A DNA stretch of 64,000 bases from an uncultured Rhodospira sp. (GTDB taxonomy: Bacteria; Pseudomonadota; Alphaproteobacteria; Rhodospirillales; Rhodospirillaceae): assembly GCF_937138205.1 (NCBI RefSeq), contig NZ_CAKZOT010000113.1, positions 62,001 to 126,000 on the forward strand, read 5' to 3'. The notes under the pieces were generated by a model. The model was not told where the DNA came from. It did not search any database and saw nothing but the letters and a program-made list of their open reading frames with translations. Of the stretch, positions 7,622-35,871 are shown in pieces. The position numbers were made by a program, and so were the translations under genes. Positions within the stretch are counted from its first letter, which is position 1. Every line of letters starts with the position of its first letter.

Positions 7622-8683
7622 TTACGCCAACGACGCCAGCATGGGCGCCGAATCCTCGATCTTGGTGATGTTGTCCAGGCCCTGGCGGATGTCGGTCATG
7701 ATGAACTCAGAGCGCTTGACCGGGCCGCCCGCCGTGGGGCGCGGGAAAAGGCGCGCCCAGGCGTTCATCTTCACCGTCAGGCCACACAGAACGCCGCCAA
7801 TGGTGACGTGGTAGGCCTCGATCAGCTCCTTGACCCTCTGGAAGCGGGCGGCCGAGATGTTGTCCCACATGGCCCTGGTCGAGCGCTCGAAGTTCTCGAA
7901 CCGGCCGGTGATGGCGGCGGTCAACTCGTTGATCGTCGTTTCGATCATCTCGCAGGACTTCATCAGGTTCTGGTCCTGGCGAAGCTGATAATTCTTTCGA
8001 AACTCGTACATGGACTCGATGAAATTGTCGAGCAGCGGCGCGAGCCGGTCCAGACACTGCTTGTAATAGGACAACGACAGGAAAATATCGCCGTAGTTCT
8101 CCAGGAACTGCGGCACCTCCAGGATATCGATGCCCAGGGCGTCGGCCATTTGCTGTAGCCTTTGTCGCGCCCGCCGGACGTCGGGGTCCCGAAACAACTG
8201 CACGACATCCTCGAACCGTTCCACCTTGACGTCTTCGCCACCATAGATCTCGGCGATCAGCGGCCGCGTGAACTGCGTCATGTAGGCGGTCAGTTCCCGA
8301 TTCTTATCCGCCGACAGTTGCAGGGCTTTCTGATCGTTCACCTGCACGCCGATGCGTCGCAGCATGATCCGCAAGGAAAAGACGTCGTAGCTGTGCAGCG
8401 TCGCCAGTTTGCGCACCACCAAGTGGTCCGGATGGTCCTCCTCCGGCGGCCAGTTCATCAGCTTGCCGAGATCCTCGATCGCCACCTGGCCGCTGCCCGT
8501 CTGGACGTCGGAGAACAACTCGATGACGCTGTGCAGGTGGGCGTTCTTGACCAGCCGGGCCTGACGCAGCGCCGGCGTTTTCAGTGGAATGATGGACAGC
8601 GGCAGGATGAACAGGGAATCCATGTCGCCGTCTTCGATGGGGTTGACGGTTTTGTCGCTGTCTTGACCGGTGGAAACGGCCAT
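7622..8683 (-). CDS. Unrecognised cytoplasmic protein, helical (353 aa)
   Basis: I do not recognise a named family. The start at 8683 (MAVSTGQDSDKTVN) has a strong AAGGAGAG site 7 bases upstream; the frame continues to 8917 without support. There is no signal peptide or clear membrane span. The sequence is dominated by helices with regularly spaced leucines (LAPLLDNFIESMYEFRKNYQ in the second half) and ends with an ITKIEDSAPML tail. A segment LFILPLSIIPLKTPALRQAR near residues 24-43 looks like a conserved N-terminal signature. It is convergent with cinA (19-base gap) and divergent from rph. Codon use is like its neighbours, so it is an established resident gene. A structure prediction would help more than motif reading here. 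Confidence 0.75.
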   Translation of the reverse strand: MAVSTGQDSDKTVNPIEDGDMDSLFILPLSIIPLKTPALRQARLVKNAHLHSVIELFSDVQTGSGQVAIEDLGKLMNWPPEEDHPDHLVVRKLATLHSYDVFSLRIMLRRIGVQVNDQKALQLSADKNRELTAYMTQFTRPLIAEIYGGEDVKVERFEDVVQLFRDPDVRRARQRLQQMADALGIDILEVPQFLENYGDIFLSLSYYKQCLDRLAPLLDNFIESMYEFRKNYQLRQDQNLMKSCEMIETTINELTAAITGRFENFERSTRAMWDNISAARFQRVKELIEAYHVTIGGVLCGLTVKMNAWARLFPRPTAGGPVKRSEFIMTDIRQGLDNITKIEDSAPMLASLA

Positions 8684-29204: not shown

Positions 29205-29441
29205 TCACTCCGGGGTCACCGCGCCCGCGTTCGTGGCCGCCGGGCAGGCCTTCGCCTTGCCGCAACTGGCGCAAGCAGGACGGCGGCGGCCGAAATACGA
29301 GCGCCACAGGTAGACCAGCGCCACCGCGACCACGGCGCCGACCAGCAGGATCTCCACAAGGCCGGTGCTGGCTTCGGTGGCCAGATTGACGGTCGGGGCG
29401 GCGTCCGCAAGCGCGGGGGTGGTCGCGTCTGTCGTGGTCAT
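29205..29441 (-). CDS. FeoB-associated Cys-rich membrane protein (78 aa)
   Basis: A small protein with one membrane span (about residues 26-46, GLVEILLVGAVVAVALVYLW), a basic stop-transfer FGRRR and a cytoplasmic tail with CASCGKAKAC (three cysteines in ten residues). This layout is the FeoB-associated Cys-rich family, small proteins thought to assist or modulate the FeoB ferrous-iron transporter, perhaps like FeoC. Its ATG (29441) overlaps the feoB stop by 4 bases (ATGA), so translation is coupled. Iron or redox sensing by the cysteine cluster is inference. Confidence 0.88.
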   Translation of the reverse strand: MTTTDATTPALADAAPTVNLATEASTGLVEILLVGAVVAVALVYLWRSYFGRRRPACASCGKAKACPAATNAGAVTPE

Positions 29442-31996
29442 CCCGTCATCTCCTGGTGCGTGTCACGGTATCCCGGCGTCGGCAATGATCGGCCGAACGG
29501 GGTCTTGAAAAAGCCCACCAGCAGCAGCAGGGCCAGCGCGGTCAGGTAGACCGCCGTGAACATCTGCAGGCCAGTGAGTTCAAGGGCCGTGCCCACGGTG
29601 TAGACGGCGCTGGCGGTGGTGAGGGCCAGCGCGGTGGGAAAGACGATGGAAAACACCATCCACTTGTAAGACCCCGTCTGCACCCGCACCATGATGGTGG
29701 TGGCCAGGCACGGCGGGTACAGGGCGAAGAACAGCATCAGCGCCAGCGCCGTCATGGCGGTGTAGCCGGCGGCCTTCTGCTCCGATCCCATGCGTTCTTC
29801 CAGTGTCTGGTTCTCGCCCTCCGGCTGGTCGAACAGCACGCCCAGGGTGGCGACACTGCTTTCGCGCGCGGCGAAGGAACTGAGCAGGGCGACGTTGATC
29901 TTCCAATCAAAGTTGGCGAACTGGGTGACCGGCTCCAGCGACTTGCCGAGCTGGCCCAATGCGCTGTTGACGATGCGCTCGTCCTTCATCTCGCGGCGCA
30001 GTTCCTTGCGCGTGGTGGCCAGGTCGCGCAGCGCCCCCTGCGCGGCCCGCGCCTCGGGATCGCGCGAGCGCACGACGAAGGGCGCCAGATCGGGGTGGTT
30101 CTCCTTGACCCGGGCGTCGAGCGCCTCGGCGGCCTCGCGGCTGCCCACCATCATGCGGTCGGACCGGTAGTCGGTGTACAGATTGACGAGGCGGGTCAGG
30201 CTCTCCTGGTCCGGCACGGCGGCGGCCAGTGGGTTGCCCGCAAGCGCCTCGCGGAACTCGACGATCGCGGCCTCGGCGCGGGCGTGATAGTCGGCCTGTC
30301 GCTCCGGCGTCAGGCCGGGAAATTGCAACAGCACGTAGACCACCGTCGCCACCGCCAGCACGACCGTCCCCACCTTCTTGATGTACAGCCACGTGCGGTC
30401 GAAGGACCGCCGCAGCACGCCGGTCACGGTGGGCAGGTGGTAGTGCGGCAATTCCATGACGAAGGGCGCCGTCTCCATGCCGCGCAAGACCGACACGGAC
30501 AACAGCTTGGCGATCAGCAGGGCGAAAATGACGGTGATGGTCGACAGGTAGAACAGGACCAGCCCCTTGGCCTCAACGAAGTAGATGTTGATGAGCAAGG
30601 TATAGAGCGGCACCTTCGCCAGGCAGTTCATGAACGGCACGGTCAGGATGGTGGCCATGCGCGCCCGCTGGTCCGGAATGCCCTTGGTGGCCATCACCCC
30701 CGGCACGGCGCAGCCGCCGGCGAACACGCCGCCCAGGATGAAGGGCAGGGTGGACTGGCCGTGCAGGCCGAAGCGGTGCAGGATGCGGTCCAGGATAAAG
30801 GCGATCCGCGCCATATATCCGCTGTCCTCCAGAATCGCGATCAATGCGAACAGGATCAGGAAGATCGGCACGTAGTTCAGCAGGGCGTTGGCGGAATCGA
30901 CCATCCACAGCCCCATGGAGCGGATCACCGGATCGTGCAGGAAGCCCGCCGCCGGCAACACGTCGCCGACGATATCGCGGAACCCCGCCAGCAGCGGCCA
31001 GGTGATCTTGGTCAGCTCGTAGCCCTGCACGATCGACAGTTGGTAGATGACCCAAACGGTCAACACCAGAAAAGCGGGTGCCAGCCAGCGGTTCAGCAGG
31101 AACCGGTCGATCCGCTCGGTCAGCGGAACGTGGTCGGTGCGCGCGTGCTGCATACTGGTGGCCAGGATCTCGCCGGCCAGGTGATCGCGGCAGGCGGCCA
31201 TGTGGTCGCCGGCCGTCAGGCCCTTGCGCTCGTGGAACGCCGCCGCCGCATTCTGGGCCTGATCGAGCAGACCGTGGGCATGGGTCACGTGCTGGTGCAG
31301 CAGGCGTTCCGCCTCGCTGTCCTCCTCCAGCAGTTTGGCGGCCAGCCAGCGGGCGGAGACAACGCTCTTCAGGCTGGGCAGTTCCGAGAGCCGGACCTGC
31401 AGGGCGGCAACGGCCTCCTCCAGGTCGCTGTAGTTGATCGTCGCCGGTGGCGCGTGCTCGGCGTCGGCGACGCGGCCGATGGCGGCCCGCAGGTCCTCGC
31501 GCCCCACGCCCTTGTGCCCGACCACCGGGACGACGGGTGCGCACAGCCGGCGCGACAGGGTTTCCAGGTCGAACGACAGGCCCCGGCTCTTCGCCACGTC
31601 CATCATGTTCAGGGCGATGACAACGGGAAATCCCAGTTCCATGAGCTGGAACGTCAGGTAGAGGCCGCGCCGAAGGTTGGTGGCGTCGACGACGTTGACC
31701 ACGACGTCGGGCTGCTCGTCCAGCAGGAACTGGCGGGCCACACGCTCTTCCAGGGAGAACGAGGTCAGGCTGTAGGTCCCCGGAAGATCGACGATCTCCA
31801 CAGCGCGGTCGCCGTCGCGATAGGCTCCGCTCTTCTTGTCCACGGTGACGCCGGGGTAGTTGGCGATGTGCTGATGCATCCCTGTCAGGGCGTTGAACAG
31901 CGTGGACTTGCCGCAATTCGGCTGGCCGGCCAGGGCCACCAGGGTCCGTTTGCGGGGGGCGGCGGACGGTGCGTCCGGAGCGGAGGAGGCGGCCAT
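29438..31996 (-). CDS. feoB: Ferrous iron transporter FeoB (852 aa)
   Basis: FeoB imports Fe(II) across the inner membrane and needs its N-terminal GTPase. The start at 31996 (MAASSAPDAPSAAPRKRTLV) is preferred over the in-frame 32023. G1 is GQPNCGKST near residue 24; G2/G3 include IANYPGVTVDKKSG and VDLPGTYSL; G4 is NMMDVAKSRG. The membrane part shows the Gate motifs FILGGVFAGGCAVPGVMATK and later LLSSFAARESSVATLGVLF. A loop of about 140 charged residues (about 560-700), from GLTPERQADYHARAEAAIV to the ELRREMKDERIV region, separates the last membrane groups and makes it longer than the usual 770 residues. It lies downstream of the DUF4198 gene (139 bases) on the same strand. Confidence 0.97.
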   Translation of the reverse strand: MAASSAPDAPSAAPRKRTLVALAGQPNCGKSTLFNALTGMHQHIANYPGVTVDKKSGAYRDGDRAVEIVDLPGTYSLTSFSLEERVARQFLLDEQPDVVVNVVDATNLRRGLYLTFQLMELGFPVVIALNMMDVAKSRGLSFDLETLSRRLCAPVVPVVGHKGVGREDLRAAIGRVADAEHAPPATINYSDLEEAVAALQVRLSELPSLKSVVSARWLAAKLLEEDSEAERLLHQHVTHAHGLLDQAQNAAAAFHERKGLTAGDHMAACRDHLAGEILATSMQHARTDHVPLTERIDRFLLNRWLAPAFLVLTVWVIYQLSIVQGYELTKITWPLLAGFRDIVGDVLPAAGFLHDPVIRSMGLWMVDSANALLNYVPIFLILFALIAILEDSGYMARIAFILDRILHRFGLHGQSTLPFILGGVFAGGCAVPGVMATKGIPDQRARMATILTVPFMNCLAKVPLYTLLINIYFVEAKGLVLFYLSTITVIFALLIAKLLSVSVLRGMETAPFVMELPHYHLPTVTGVLRRSFDRTWLYIKKVGTVVLAVATVVYVLLQFPGLTPERQADYHARAEAAIVEFREALAGNPLAAAVPDQESLTRLVNLYTDYRSDRMMVGSREAAEALDARVKENHPDLAPFVVRSRDPEARAAQGALRDLATTRKELRREMKDERIVNSALGQLGKSLEPVTQFANFDWKINVALLSSFAARESSVATLGVLFDQPEGENQTLEERMGSEQKAAGYTAMTALALMLFFALYPPCLATTIMVRVQTGSYKWMVFSIVFPTALALTTASAVYTVGTALELTGLQMFTAVYLTALALLLLVGFFKTPFGRSLPTPGYRDTHQEMTG

Positions 31997-32135
31997 ACAA
32001 TACCTCGACAAGGGCGGGGGCACCGTGTGCTGGCGCCCGGCAGGCGTTGGTGCGAAACAATCGCATTTCCTGCCGGTTGTCCAGGCCGATCCCGAGACGC
32101 GGGCGATCCCCCATCGTCCCGGGTCCCGGCCCGGG

Positions 32136-32924
32136 CTATTTCAAGTCAAAGGCGCGGACCCAGATCACGGCGTCCTGGCTCAACTCCTTGCCCTCGTGCT
32201 CCGTGGCGGGGCCGGAGCCCAACGCGGCGAAGCCCCAGAACCCGGCCTTGGGGATGCCGAACGTGAATTCGCCGTTGGCATCGGTGATCGCCACCAGGGT
32301 TCCCCCGGGCATGGGCTCGACGGTCGGTTCGGTGGCGCTGTTGGTCGCCATGTCCGGCGGTGCGGCCATGTATTCGATTTCGATCTCCGCGCCCGGCACC
32401 GGCTCGCCCTCCGACAACAGCACGCCGGAGAATGTCGAGCCGGCGATCACGTTGGTCGGCTTGTTCAGCGGCACGATCTCGGTCGGCAGGCCGACGGGCT
32501 CGTTCCACCCGGTGGGGATGCCGCCCTTGTTCAGAAAGCTTTTGGTGATCTGCTGGATGTAGATGTCCTCACTTTCTTCGTAGTAGGGCGCCGGCGTGAA
32601 GGCGACGATGTAGTCGCCGTTGCGCCGGACCGGGATGTCGGCCTTGAACGCCTGGGCCTCGTTGTCGGCGCCGTGGAACGTGATGGGCGCCAGGCTGTCG
32701 GTCAGGTCGATCGCCTCGCCCTTGAAGTGCAACTCCAGGCGGGACGGGGCGGCGACGTCCATGGCATGACCGTTTTCCATCGGATGCCAGAAGATGAACG
32801 CCATCGGCACGGGGCCGGGCCTGTCCAGGTTGACCTTGGGCGTATAGGCGAGCTGGAAATGGGCCAGGGCGGGGGCAGCCGATACAATCAGGGCGGCCGC
32901 GACCGCCGTAACGGTCCGGATCAT
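32136..32924 (-). CDS. Exported DUF4198 protein of the Feo locus (262 aa)
   Basis: A periplasmic protein with a signal peptide at residues 1-21 (ending APALA, then HFQL). The DUF4198 fold is visible in LDRPGPVPMAFIFWHPMENG, NGDYIVAFTPAPYYEESEDI and the C-terminal carboxypeptidase-regulatory-like repeat GTLVAITDANGEFTFGIPKAGFW. DUF4198 proteins are auxiliary periplasmic components of several nickel, cobalt and other metal uptake systems. The mature N-terminus begins with histidine, and His47, His54 and Met residues (WHPMENGHAMD) could bind metal. Its position between the small exported gene and feoB suggests it delivers or buffers Fe(II). Ferrous specificity is inferred from context only. Confidence 0.85.
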   Translation of the reverse strand: MIRTVTAVAAALIVSAAPALAHFQLAYTPKVNLDRPGPVPMAFIFWHPMENGHAMDVAAPSRLELHFKGEAIDLTDSLAPITFHGADNEAQAFKADIPVRRNGDYIVAFTPAPYYEESEDIYIQQITKSFLNKGGIPTGWNEPVGLPTEIVPLNKPTNVIAGSTFSGVLLSEGEPVPGAEIEIEYMAAPPDMATNSATEPTVEPMPGGTLVAITDANGEFTFGIPKAGFWGFAALGSGPATEHEGKELSQDAVIWVRAFDLK

Positions 32925-32964
32925 AGAGGATCTCCTGTTGTCTGGTGTTTTTCTTCAGTGGTGA

Positions 32965-33291
32965 TCAGTAAATCTCGTCGGCGGGCACGTCGATGCTGTG
33001 GCCTTCCCCGGCATCGAACTGAACGCTGTAGTCGCCGTCCGGCATGTCGAAGATGAACTCGCTGTTGGCGTCCATCGTGCTTTCCTTGATGACATCGCCG
33101 GCGCCGTCGAGCACCCGCACCGACACGCCGGCGGCGGATGAGCCATCGGAGAACCCGGCCTCGCACAGCACGGTGCCGTCGCCGTTGTCGTAGCAGGAGA
33201 AAAGGGGCGTATGGGCCAGCGCGGCGCCGGCCGAGCCGACGATCAGACTGGCGCTCAGCGCCAGCGCGGGGATCAGGGGGGATCGGATCAT
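32965..33291 (-). CDS. Small exported carboxypeptidase-regulatory-like protein (108 aa)
   Basis: The start at 33291 (MIRSPLIPALALSASLIVG) overlaps the stop of the zinc-ribbon gene by 4 bases (ATGA). A signal peptide covers residues 1-26 (ending GAALA, mature start HTPLF). The mature 82 residues form one small beta-sandwich-like repeat, SVRVLDGAGDVIKESTMDA with FIFDMPDGDYSVQFD. Cys34 and Cys44 (FSCYDNGDGTVLCEAG) probably form a disulfide. The mature histidine start and acidic surface recall the small NikL-like partners of DUF4198 proteins in metal transporters. It is followed 41 bases later by the DUF4198 gene on the same strand. Role in periplasmic iron handling is inference. Confidence 0.75.
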   Translation of the reverse strand: MIRSPLIPALALSASLIVGSAGAALAHTPLFSCYDNGDGTVLCEAGFSDGSSAAGVSVRVLDGAGDVIKESTMDANSEFIFDMPDGDYSVQFDAGEGHSIDVPADEIY

Positions 33292-33776
33292 GACGGGGTC
33301 CTCTGTTGAAGGGAGTGGGCACTTGTGGCCAAGGCGGCTGGCGTGTGGTGGTGCCGCAAGGCCGTCACCAAGGGATCGTCGGGGGCGGCCCGCAGGCGCT
33401 GCACCATGGACCAAGCTGTCTTGTAGCTGACGCCGCACTGCCGCTCGATGCGGGCGGGCAGGCCCCGCTCATTGCCGGCCAGGAACAGGTCGAGGACGCG
33501 CAGCCAAGTGGCCGTGTCGACGTTGGACCGCTCCAACACGGTGCCGCGCCGGGCCGAAAACGGCTTGCGGCAGCGGGCGCACTTGAACCGGACGCCGCCG
33601 GACCGGGGACAGACCATGCGGTAGGTGTGGCGTGATCCGCAGTGCGGGCAGACAGGAACGCCGCGCGGCCAGCGCAGCCACTCCAGCCGTGTCTCGGCGC
33701 TGGCGCGTTCCCCGGCGTCGGTTGCCGTTCCGGGCGGCGGCGAAGGCGTGAGGGCGGTGGCGGTCGCGCTTTGCAT
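33288..33776 (-). CDS. IS1595-type zinc-ribbon/HTH protein lacking a transposase nuclease domain (162 aa)
   Basis: The start at 33776 (MQSATATALTPSPPPG) has GAGAGG about 7 bases upstream. After a Pro/Thr-rich tail, the protein carries the zinc ribbon of IS1595 transposases: CPHCGSRHTYRM near residues 43-54 and FKCARCRKPFSARRGTVLE near 64-82. It is followed by the usual helical DNA-binding segment WLRVLDLFLAGNERGLPARI and SYKTAWSMVQRLRAA (about 91-134). The ISXO2-like DDE catalytic domain, which should follow, is absent; the protein ends about 28 residues later. There is no terminal inverted repeat or remnant nuclease downstream. Its stop overlaps the next gene by 4 bases and a Fur-like box lies upstream, so it looks like a recruited DNA-binding protein and not a decaying insertion sequence. 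Confidence 0.82.
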   Translation of the reverse strand: MQSATATALTPSPPPGTATDAGERASAETRLEWLRWPRGVPVCPHCGSRHTYRMVCPRSGGVRFKCARCRKPFSARRGTVLERSNVDTATWLRVLDLFLAGNERGLPARIERQCGVSYKTAWSMVQRLRAAPDDPLVTALRHHHTPAALATSAHSLQQRTPS

Positions 33777-34196
33777 ACGATCCTCTCGAGTGGTCGAGGT
33801 CCGACGACGCGGGACCGGGCGCGGTCCGGCCGCATCCGTGGGCACCGGTGCATCGGCTTGCGTTACGACCAGGACTCTATTGCCAGTGAGAAGCGTTCGC
33901 AAGATAAAAAGAAAAGGGTCAATTGACCGGCGTGTTTCTGAAAAAAGCCTGCATATTCGGGCGCTTGGCGGGGAGTGATCCAGCGTCAGCCAAGTACCTT
34001 AGCAAACAAATGGGTCATTACTGACCACAGCCCGCCATCGTCTTTTCATGGAGCGCCGCGGGACGCCCATGGCCACTCTCGGTCGCCCGCCAAGTCGGCC
34101 GACCAAGACCAGTTCATTGTTTTGATGAATTCTAAACGAGATCCCGGTCACACCAAAAGGCATGGCCATACCTGCGCGGCGCGCCAGCGCCGGATC
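33777..34196. other. Intergenic region between feoA and the zinc-ribbon gene
   Basis: This 420-base gap within a same-strand locus is AT-richer than its surroundings, and it holds the Fur-like box at 33880-33902. On the minus strand TTGACC (about 33927-33922) is a possible -35. No frame resembles a protein. It shows that the zinc-ribbon gene starts a second transcription unit and is not simply read from feoA. Confidence 0.6.
33880..33902 (-). promoter_or_regulatory. Fur-like box upstream of the zinc-ribbon/DUF4198/feoB operon
   Basis: On the minus strand the site reads TTGCGAACG, then CTTCT, then CACTGGCAA: an imperfect 23-base palindrome with TTGC/GCAA ends. It shares TGCGAA-C/T-GC-C/T-TCTCACT with the site in front of feoA at 34796-34818. 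Alphaproteobacterial Fur sites commonly have TGC...GCA-bounded palindromes. It lies about 104 bases upstream of the zinc-ribbon start codon. Confidence 0.65.
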
Positions 34197-34712
34197 TCAG
34201 GCGGAGACCACCTGGATGCGCGCGGCCTCGGCGCGGCGCAGGGTGATGAACGCGTCGTCGATCCGCACTTCGACCGGATCATCCAGCGGGGCACTGCGCA
34301 CCACTTCAAGGCGGGCATTGGGGACCAGCCCCAGATCCATCAGGCGATGGCGGACCGGACCGTGCCCATGCAAGGCGACGATCCGGCAGTGTTCGCCCGG
34401 TGGCACATCGTTCAGCGAATGCCCGTCAAACGCGGCGTTGGCGGCGCCATGGCGATGCCGGCGACCATGCCCGTGACCAAGTCCGCCGCCAGGGCCGGCC
34501 CCGGCCCCCTGGCCACCGCCCCTCTTGCGCCATCCACGGCCCCGGCCCAAGCCGTGGCCCATGCCGTGGCCGAAGCTCTCGTGTCGGTCGGTCGGCGCCG
34601 TCACGTCGATCGAGGAGTCCTGTGACTCGGGGGCAAGCACGTCTTGGTTCCGACCATGCCCACCGCGTCGGTGCCAGCGCGCTCGGCTTCCTCGCCCCAG
34701 ACCACGAAACAT
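34197..34712 (-). CDS. feoA: FeoA-domain protein with a His/Gly-rich N-terminal extension (171 aa)
   Basis: FeoA is a small SH3-like cytosolic partner of FeoB. The C-terminal 75 residues are a complete FeoA domain: SLNDVPPGEHCRIVALHGHG, VRHRLMDLGLVPNARLEVV and the end DAFITLRRAEAARIQV. In front lies an unusual 95-residue region rich in Gly, Arg and His (FGHGMGHGLGRGRGW, then GLGHGHGRRHRHGAAN), a plausible metal-binding or low-complexity tail absent from ordinary 75-90-residue FeoA proteins. The start at 34712 (MFRGLGRGS) has GGGAT about 8 bases upstream; an in-frame start at 34772 is possible. A Fur-like box sits about 85-105 bases upstream. Metal binding by the His-rich tail is inference. 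Confidence 0.85.
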   Translation of the reverse strand: MFRGLGRGSRARWHRRGGHGRNQDVLAPESQDSSIDVTAPTDRHESFGHGMGHGLGRGRGWRKRGGGQGAGAGPGGGLGHGHGRRHRHGAANAAFDGHSLNDVPPGEHCRIVALHGHGPVRHRLMDLGLVPNARLEVVRSAPLDDPVEVRIDDAFITLRRAEAARIQVVSA

Positions 34713-34795
34713 GCTGCCTATCCCTCTACGAGGTCGCGCGGGCGATCCCGGTGTGAAGCGCGACCACAACAATCCTATGGGTTTCTAATTGGGCA

Positions 34796-34818
34796 CTCTA
34801 AGTGAGAGGCATTCGCAT
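34796..34818 (-). promoter_or_regulatory. Fur-like box upstream of feoA
   Basis: On the minus strand the site reads ATGCGAATG, CCTCTC, ACTTAGAG. Its left half matches the box at 33880-33902 at TGCGAA-GC-TCTCACT. It lies between the divergent feoA and oxyR genes, about 140 bases from oxyR, so it could influence both. Confidence 0.6.
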
Positions 34819-34956: not shown

Positions 34957-35871
34957 ATGCGCGCCCTGCCAAGCCCTCGCCAGCTTCGGTATCTGGTCAC
35001 CGTCGCCGAAACGCTGCACTTCGGCCAGGCGGCGGATCGGTGCAACGTCACCCAGTCCACGTTGTCCGCCGGCATTCGCGAACTGGAAGGGCTGCTCGGG
35101 GTGACGCTGATCGAGCGCCAGTCGCGGCGCCGCGTGGTGATCACGCCGATTGGCCACGAGATCGTCGCCCGCGCGGAGCGGTTGCTGGCCGACACCGAGA
35201 CACTGGTCGACGTCGCGGCCGCCGGGTCCTCGCCGCTGAGCGGACTGTTGCGCCTGGGCGTGATTCCGACCATCGGGCCCTACCTTCTGCCGGCGGCGTT
35301 GCCCGACATTCGCCGTCGGTATCCGGACCTGCGGCTGTACCTGCGCGAGGCCCTGACCGATACCCTGCTGGAGGCTCTGGCGGCGGGCCGGCTGGACGCG
35401 GTTCTGGTGGCCACGCCCTTCGATCTGCGCGGCATGGCCTCGGTGGCGCTGGGGGACGAGGACGTGGTGGCCGCGCTGCCCGCCGACCACCGGCTGGCCG
35501 GACACGCGACCCTGCGGGAGGACGACCTTGCGGGCGAGACGGTGCTGGTGCTGGAGGACGGGCACTGCTTGCGCGACCATGCCCTGGCGGCGTGCCGGAT
35601 GGACCGGGGGCGCAGCGACCAGCGGTTCCAGGCCACCAGCCTGGCGACCCTGACGCAGATGGTGGCGGCCGGCCTGGGGGTCACGCTGCTGCCGCGCATG
35701 GCGGTCGGGCGTGAGGTGGTCCCGGACGGCGGCGTGGTGGTCCGGGATCTGGCCGATGTGCGAACCGCGCGCACGTTGACCCTGGCGTGGCGGCCCGGCG
35801 CGGCGCGCGAGGCCGACTTCCGCCTGCTGGCCGATCTGCTGCGAGAGGCGCACGGCCGAACAGCGGGTTGA
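34957..35871 (+). CDS. oxyR: LysR-type peroxide regulator OxyR (304 aa)
   Basis: OxyR senses hydrogen peroxide by an intramolecular disulfide and activates antioxidant genes. The N-terminal winged helix is RQLRYLVTVAETLHFGQAAD, with the recognition segment VTQSTLSAGIRELEGLLGVT. In the effector domain, LEDGHCLRDHALAAC places the redox cysteines at residues 204 and 213, the same 9-residue spacing as Cys199/Cys208 of E. coli OxyR. Length is standard. No catalase or peroxiredoxin gene is adjacent, so it acts in trans. Its neighbourhood with feoA and a shared Fur-like site is sensible, because Fe(II) import and peroxide defence are linked by Fenton chemistry. Confidence 0.93.
   Translation: MRALPSPRQLRYLVTVAETLHFGQAADRCNVTQSTLSAGIRELEGLLGVTLIERQSRRRVVITPIGHEIVARAERLLADTETLVDVAAAGSSPLSGLLRLGVIPTIGPYLLPAALPDIRRRYPDLRLYLREALTDTLLEALAAGRLDAVLVATPFDLRGMASVALGDEDVVAALPADHRLAGHATLREDDLAGETVLVLEDGHCLRDHALAACRMDRGRSDQRFQATSLATLTQMVAAGLGVTLLPRMAVGREVVPDGGVVVRDLADVRTARTLTLAWRPGAAREADFRLLADLLREAHGRTAG

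Follow-up and report, generated by a model that had tools for sequence, protein, structure and literature searches.

Some purple bacteria seem to have turned half of a transposase, the part that binds DNA, into a stand-alone protein encoded beside iron uptake and storage genes, and its role is most likely that of a gene switch. The case described here lies in the window, the whole 64,000-nucleotide stretch of DNA analyzed, in which a 162-residue protein (the ribbon protein) is encoded within a ferrous iron transport (feo) locus. Judged from its sequence and surroundings, this protein is probably the exapted DNA-binding half of an IS1595 transposase, retained without the nuclease as a regulator of iron uptake and storage genes. 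Feature coordinates are given in Table 1. W denotes the window locus, L with a number the other loci, and G with a number the genomes compared.

Table 1. Positions of the ribbon gene, its neighbors and predicted control sites in the window, and of the small ORFs following the sister-clade regulators.
Feature	Position	Strand	Remarks
Stand-alone IS1595-type zinc ribbon and HTH protein	33288..33776	-	162 aa; ATG start at 33776, TGA end at 33288
ATGA, overlap of ribbon-gene stop and next-gene start	33288..33291	-	Plus strand reads TCAT
Small secreted protein, NikL-like	32965..33291	-	108 aa; NF058648 E 4.7e-14, 52.8 bits, under the cut-off of 100
DUF4198 protein	32136..32924	-	PF10670 E 6.3e-48
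FeoB ferrous iron transporter	29438..31996	-	PF02421 and TIGR00437, matched with the longer ORF 29438-32023; shorter start picked by the codon-usage gene caller
Small cysteine-rich FeoB-associated protein	29205..29441	-	ORF; homologue after FeoB in L035
FeoA	34197..34772	-	PF04023 E 4.5e-22, residues 119-188 (last third)
Predicted promoter	33874..33902	-	-35 TTGCGA 33897-33902, 17-bp spacer, -10 TAGAGT 33874-33879
Fur-like box TGAGAAGCGTTCGCA	33887..33901		Overlaps the TTGCGA-17-TAGAGT ribbon-gene promoter
Fur-like box TGAGAGGCATTCGCA	34803..34817		Upstream of FeoA
Candidate operator AAACAAATGGGTCATTAC	34004..34021	+
Small ORF after sister-clade regulator	L047 8414-8542; L207 7744-7854; L276 2434-2565		L276 on the reverse strand
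Small ORF or tail	L216 within 7916-8164; L206		In L206, the C-terminus of the ribbon gene

The zinc ribbon and helical segment of an IS1595 transposase, which the preliminary description had recognized in the protein, are both confirmed by domain searches. Residues 26-71 match the zinc ribbon PF12760 (E 2.3e-8, 34.3 bits against a Pfam cut-off of 25.4), and residues 84-133 align solely to positions 2-52 of the 215-position model NF033547, at 26.7 bits against a cut-off of 75. In an alignment with ordinary transposases, the entire transposase DNA-binding region is retained. The AlphaFold model of the protein is fair, with a mean pLDDT of 83, strands at residues 51-74, and helices at 88-144. No PDB relatives were found at E≤0.001, by sequence or by fold (Foldseek). 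The ribbon gene of the window is not called by a simple codon-usage gene caller, so composition alone is insufficient to call it. A good ribosome site had been proposed ahead of the gene and is present as GAGAGGATCGTATG.

The same description had noted that the gene lacks a DDE domain and terminal inverted repeats and that its stop codon overlaps the next gene, and all three points held. None of the 11 Pfam matches at E≤1 is to a DDE family, and a DDE domain in frame, the finding that would have argued against a nuclease-less protein, was looked for and is absent. The next gene begins at the stop codon of the ribbon gene, with the ATGA overlap on the gene strand. Nine inverted-repeat pairs occur at 32900-34200 and none of them brackets the gene. 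The ribbon gene is not an IS1595 element because two defining features fail, the DDE nuclease and terminal inverted repeats with a target duplication. The zinc ribbon and HTH are common to the protein and to IS1595 transposases, and weaker relatives are mostly 30-42% identical there. The ribbon gene differs from the transposases in having neither the nuclease nor bracketing inverted repeats, in its single tight copy, and in its place in iron loci.

Searching genomes with the 162-residue protein, as had been recommended, shows that the nuclease-less form is kept. Of the 73 family genomes searched, 11 (four genera, Roseospira/Rhodospirillum relatives) carry a short orthologue without the DDE domain, with one tight copy in each. 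A profile made from the alignment of these 11 orthologues was run against the 73 family genomes and against 317 genomes of the order. In each set 11 genomes score at least 220 bits, and the next best reaches 100 bits; the scores of the 11 are high by construction because the same 11 built the profile. A preceding single-sequence search of 60 genomes, by which the orthologues were first identified, gave E 1.3e-39 or better for the orthologues against 1.6e-19 for the next match. Of the nine loci returned by a scan of named genomes, eight hold orthologues (Roseospira, Rhodospira, Roseospirillum, Pararhodospirillum, and a bin of Rhodospirillum); the ninth, in an actinomycete bin, holds a 31% match. 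Plasmid relatives are all below 60% identity (49 records for the window protein and 69 for the sister clade described below), and among the matches listed (15 of 49 and 15 of 69) they are annotated as transposases or are unannotated. A further genome search, centered on a one-genome order, found no new relatives.

A decaying transposase fragment, transcribed with feo by chance, would also be similar to IS1595 transposases and might be passed over by a codon model as this gene was. This explanation is extremely improbable. The short form is found in 11/11 orthologues, and decay of a full transposase was rejected on this ground; a wrongly labelled duplicate row (L062) aside, the orthologues make up a single group in the tree. 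Substitutions in the core of the 11 orthologues are biased to third positions (0.30/0.22/0.49 by codon position), and the promoter block is conserved.

Cys43, Cys46, Cys66, and Cys69 are invariant in 11/11 orthologues. The same four are invariant in 5/5 sister-clade proteins and in 4/4 ordinary transposases aligned. A variant of the regulator reading holds that the ribbon senses metal, with Fe(II)/Zn(II) exchange at the four cysteines switching DNA binding. The invariance of the cysteines in both stand-alone groups and the iron-gene context agree with this variant, but no sensing role is needed because the cysteines are shared with ordinary transposases, and sensing is unlikely. The four cysteines fit a sensor no better than a zinc ribbon with a structural role.

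In the window, the ribbon gene is followed on the same strand by the genes for the small secreted protein, the DUF4198 protein, FeoB, and the small cysteine-rich protein, while FeoA is encoded upstream. If TTG 34772 is its start, FeoA seems to carry a long N-terminal extension rich in Gly and His (34407-34772). An OxyR-like LysR gene (34957-35871) adjoins feoA.

The gene company of the ribbon gene in the 11 genomes can be sorted into three groups. Five have the secreted-protein and DUF4198 genes, with or without FeoB. In three of these (G000, G002, and G004) FeoB comes next, and in the other two (G001 and G005) it is on a different contig. In G001, IS21 istA/istB-like genes were identified by eye at the expected feoB position after DUF4198 (L038 10701-12711). 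The second group has ferrosome-like genes and also includes five genomes. G003, G024, and G031 carry a cluster composed of a FezB-like ATPase, two small HMA_2-like proteins, and a MamC-like protein; in G018 and G035 a partial ferrosome-like cluster adjoins the ribbon gene and the FezB-like gene is elsewhere. The single remaining genome (G012) has neither feo nor ferrosome-like genes near the ribbon gene. Within the genus of the window, the secreted-protein and DUF4198 partners are present in 5/6 genomes and FeoB follows directly in 3/6.

The 4-bp ATGA overlap recurs with the secreted-protein gene in L034 and L035 and with a FezC-like gene in L039 and L040. Including W, a 4-bp stop/start overlap with differing partner genes was found at five of the nine loci examined.

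The preliminary description had tied the protein to ferrous iron transport and asked how often it lies next to feo genes. This tie stands only in the genus of the window. Other genera have the orthologue in ferrosome-like clusters, and a feo-only role was rejected because five relatives place it there. The proposed exapted DNA-binding regulator is thus nuclease-less, transposase-derived, conserved, and associated with iron genes, but feo alone is too narrow a scope for it. FeoC is a small DNA-binding-type protein in the feo locus, and the ribbon protein is likewise small, DNA-binding-type, and encoded in a feo locus. It differs in that its gene also lies outside feo loci, and it was not identified as FeoC, which is absent from the 11 Pfam matches at E≤1.

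Ferrosome (fez) clusters were reportedly described by Grant in 2022 and Pi in 2023. The clusters found beside the ribbon gene can be compared with them as follows. The heavy-metal P1B-type ATPase in the cluster of L033 matches TIGR01525 (E 2.7e-134, 449 bits against a cut-off of 346). HMA_2 at the N-terminus of the FezB-like ATPase, a candidate FezB, is under the cut-off (E 0.0045). Of the small HMA_2-like proteins, one exceeds the cut-off, two fall short of it, and a fourth gives no match. A small membrane protein directly follows the ribbon gene in G018, G024, and G035. The FezC-like small membrane proteins match DUF4405 in 5/6 cases, all under the cut-off (E 0.012-0.093). The L041 copy (G024) matches cytochrome b561 (0.0081) and not DUF4405, and in the L039 copy DUF998 outscores DUF4405. 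According to PMC10979944, FezC is a DUF4405-like cytochrome. A heavy-metal P-type ATPase, and possibly a DUF4405-like small membrane protein, is common to fez clusters and the ribbon neighbors. PMC12574912 reports Fur repression of FezA and FezB in C. difficile. The present clusters differ in having MamC-like proteins and the ribbon gene.

The MamC-like proteins are encoded at L033 3831-4211, L036 6942-7307, L039 6795-7166, and L041 6728-7177. All four proteins tested match the magnetosome MamC model under its cut-off (E 4e-9 to 5e-7). A MamC-like gene is present in 7/11 genomes with the ribbon gene and 0/62 without (p 2e-7, related genomes treated as independent). A FezB-like gene (E≤1e-100) is present in 7/11 and 4/62, respectively (Fisher p 5e-5, relatedness ignored).

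A second clade of stand-alone ribbon proteins was reached through the weaker short homologues. This sister clade was found in 4/317 order genomes and 1/385 class genomes sampled. The two stand-alone clades are joined in a 44-row tree with support of 98/90 and stand apart from 24 rows picked as transposases by a regular expression; a 25th row so picked, L062, is the L041 orthologue protein.

The sister-clade gene lies between a bfd-like and a ferritin-family gene at three of its five loci (L047, L207, and L276). This order of bfd-like, ribbon, and ferritin-family genes belongs to genomes G041, G179, and G427, where the BFD-like neighbors match PF04324 with E 1.6e-10, 9e-8, and 2.6e-6, all above the cut-off. 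The ferritin-family neighbors match PF00210 with E 2e-36 or better and were named bacterioferritin-like (bfr-like) by eye. In G178 the sister-clade gene is 1.6 kb from another ferritin-family gene, which is Dps-like. In G254 other genes separate it from secreted-protein, DUF4198, FeoA, and FeoB genes, which are about 3.8 kb away.

A small ORF or tail directly after the regulator was seen at 5/5 sister-clade loci, with a likeness of W..hh.ALL...P by eye. The small ORF is about 36-43 residues long with the core W-x-x-h-h-x-A-L-L. Its start overlaps the regulator stop in L047 and L207, and in L206 it is fused to the regulator. A LysR relative of the OxyR-like gene of the window (58% identity) is near the sister-clade regulator in L206 (4402-4773). 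A third, independent stand-alone IS1595 ribbon protein with the conserved C-terminus WSTSWN... was seen in L209, L210, and L211 (G229-G231). It is nested among transposases in the tree, and its gene adjoins a carboxylase-like gene and a glyoxalase-family gene (Pfam-tested in L211) read as methylmalonyl-CoA epimerase.

The promoter of the ribbon gene carries a Fur-like box, as the preliminary description had suggested. The box agrees with 11/14 fixed positions of TGAGAATNATTCTCA. A related box and promoter block precedes 11/11 orthologues, identified by an EM search of the 420 bp upstream of the 11 genes with one site per sequence assumed (score 197; 12 shuffled sets reached no more than 87), and TTGCGA/TTGAGA was found upstream of all 11. 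Taken with the gene company, feo-associated or ferrosome-like genes occur at 10/11 loci and the Fur-like promoter block at 11/11. Fur is associated with iron genes. The ribbon protein shares this association, and Fur-like boxes are found at the promoters linked to it, but it is set apart from Fur by its other motif and by its own gene lying behind a Fur-like box. It was not identified as Fur, since no Fur family is among its Pfam matches.

A second EM motif, AnAAATGGGTnAyyAAAGG, was found with the promoter block masked and a width of 24 (score 107; no more than 74 in any of 12 shuffled sets). The shared element AAATGGGTnAyyAAAG stands upstream of Fur-box promoters in iron loci at a nearly fixed spacing. 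The motif is 111-114 bp from the -35 in W, L033, L034, L035, L039, and L040 and 101 bp in L036. At the ribbon promoters of four of the 11 loci (L037, L038, L041, and L042) it is absent, weak, or unclear. At the HMA2a promoters of the ferrosome-like clusters, GGGT is 56-59 bp before TATCAT in six of seven (56-58 bp in L033, L036, L039, L040, and L163, and 59 bp in L162), and in L041 the spacing does not fit. The values for L036 and L040 are each one of several choices because several GGGT sequences lie upstream. No -35 at the HMA2a promoters is convincing by eye.

A matrix was constructed from three feo-linked sites and used to scan 598 kb. The best five non-training sites are ribbon or ferrosome promoters, three from the discovery set and two from outside it (L033 at 3319 and 7192); the sixth-ranked site is in L166. 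With a six-site matrix, four of the best six non-training matches are ferrosome promoters and the other two are in L166 and L049. Ferrosome loci are motif-poor by matrix score in 2/7 genomes (G005, 12.8 bits; G024, none above 12.1), and in G035 the FezB-like locus, which lies away from the ribbon gene (L161), shows the motif weakly or not at all. Genome-wide, the pattern AAAYGGGTNAYYAA has seven matches in the 11 ribbon-gene genomes against one for the reversed control. Five of the seven are ribbon or ferrosome promoters, and the other two, in G031, are in coding sequence by eye. A candidate element of G031 is at 3233371-3233384. In the 62 other genomes, the numbers are 19 for the pattern and 20 for the control.

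All three BFD loci also have the motif, or a weaker likeness of it, 104-126 bp before the ferritin gene. The bfr-like promoter of L276 scores 22.7 bits (p 0.001) and is the only one significant alone (L207, p 0.16; L047, p 0.11). A stricter motif pattern, tried on 19 loci, matched six of them and gave no match across 238 kb of control loci; its matches at L207 and L047 are circular because the pattern was written after both sites had been seen.

The motif could instead be bound by a different iron or redox regulator, with the ribbon protein merely co-transcribed and serving as a metal chaperone, an RNA-binding protein, or a translational partner of the next gene. The recurrent overlap with different partner genes would suit this, and a strong motif-like site of 18.6 bits precedes feoA in G008 (L166 13630-13647), where FezB-like and Feo genes occur together and the ribbon gene was not found (genome 81% complete). 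However, four ferrosome-like clusters without the ribbon gene (L164-L167) have no site of at least 16 bits near FezB, with L164 and L165 ending soon after FezB, and the ribbon protein retains the whole DNA-binding region of the transposase. A different regulator is a rather unlikely explanation.

A further alternative is modeled on InsA of IS1, which according to PMC12428005 represses the promoter of its element and competes at both ends. As proposed here for the ribbon protein, InsA is described there as a regulator made of just the part of a transposase that binds DNA. An InsA-like trans-repressor would occupy insertion sequence ends against IS1595 transposition and have no iron role. In its favor, Rhodospira trueperi (G002) has a genuine IS1595 element (L078 1379-2411), whose inverted ends are 23 bp long and whose 8-bp target duplication is identical. 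InsA, however, regulates its own insertion sequence, and the ribbon gene is outside any recognizable one, among host iron genes. The repeated siting by iron genes, the Fur-box promoters, and the motif at iron promoters speak against this alternative, as does an intact end, GAGGCTTATCCCTTTGAATCCGG, without a clear motif match; it is very unlikely. An origin of the motif from IS1595 ends was also considered and rejected, as the one clear end pair with a target duplication (L078) is too weakly alike.

The regulator reading can be set out as follows. The zinc ribbon and HTH of an IS1595 transposase would have been kept without the nuclease as a transcription regulator. Because a Fur-like box covers the ribbon promoter, the protein is expected to be made when iron is scarce, if Fur binds there. 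It would then bind AAATGGGTnAyyAAAG at its own promoter and at the promoters of other iron genes, the predicted targets being feo in the genus of the window and ferrosome-like genes in the relatives. About 57 bp downstream of the element is a -10-like hexamer inside a Fur-like box, and this arrangement makes an activator working with Fur the likeliest role. The spacing of the element and the lack of a convincing -35 at HMA2a also suggest an activator, and we infer activation rather than repression. The ribbon regulator is probably, on these sequence features, an activator acting together with Fur.

A broader reading is offered more tentatively and may well prove too wide. One ancient IS1595 exaptation would have founded a group of alphaproteobacterial iron-economy regulators that use AAATGGGTnAyyAAAG about 57 bp above Fur-controlled promoters. 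These would switch ferrosome-like organelles, bacterioferritin, and Feo, with one branch using a microprotein partner that is fused in one species.

A literature search for this protein type returned no paper evidently about a stand-alone IS1595 ribbon regulator. Genes of this type are easily overlooked because they are transposase-like. To our knowledge, the control of ferrosome and bacterioferritin genes by anything other than Fur is little known. If the regulator reading is true, the ribbon protein would be a new player in bacterial iron control and would show clearly that the DNA-binding domain of a bacterial transposase can become a physiological regulator. It would also give ferrosome and bacterioferritin genes a dedicated regulator and a defined DNA site, testable in a genetically tractable host, G031.
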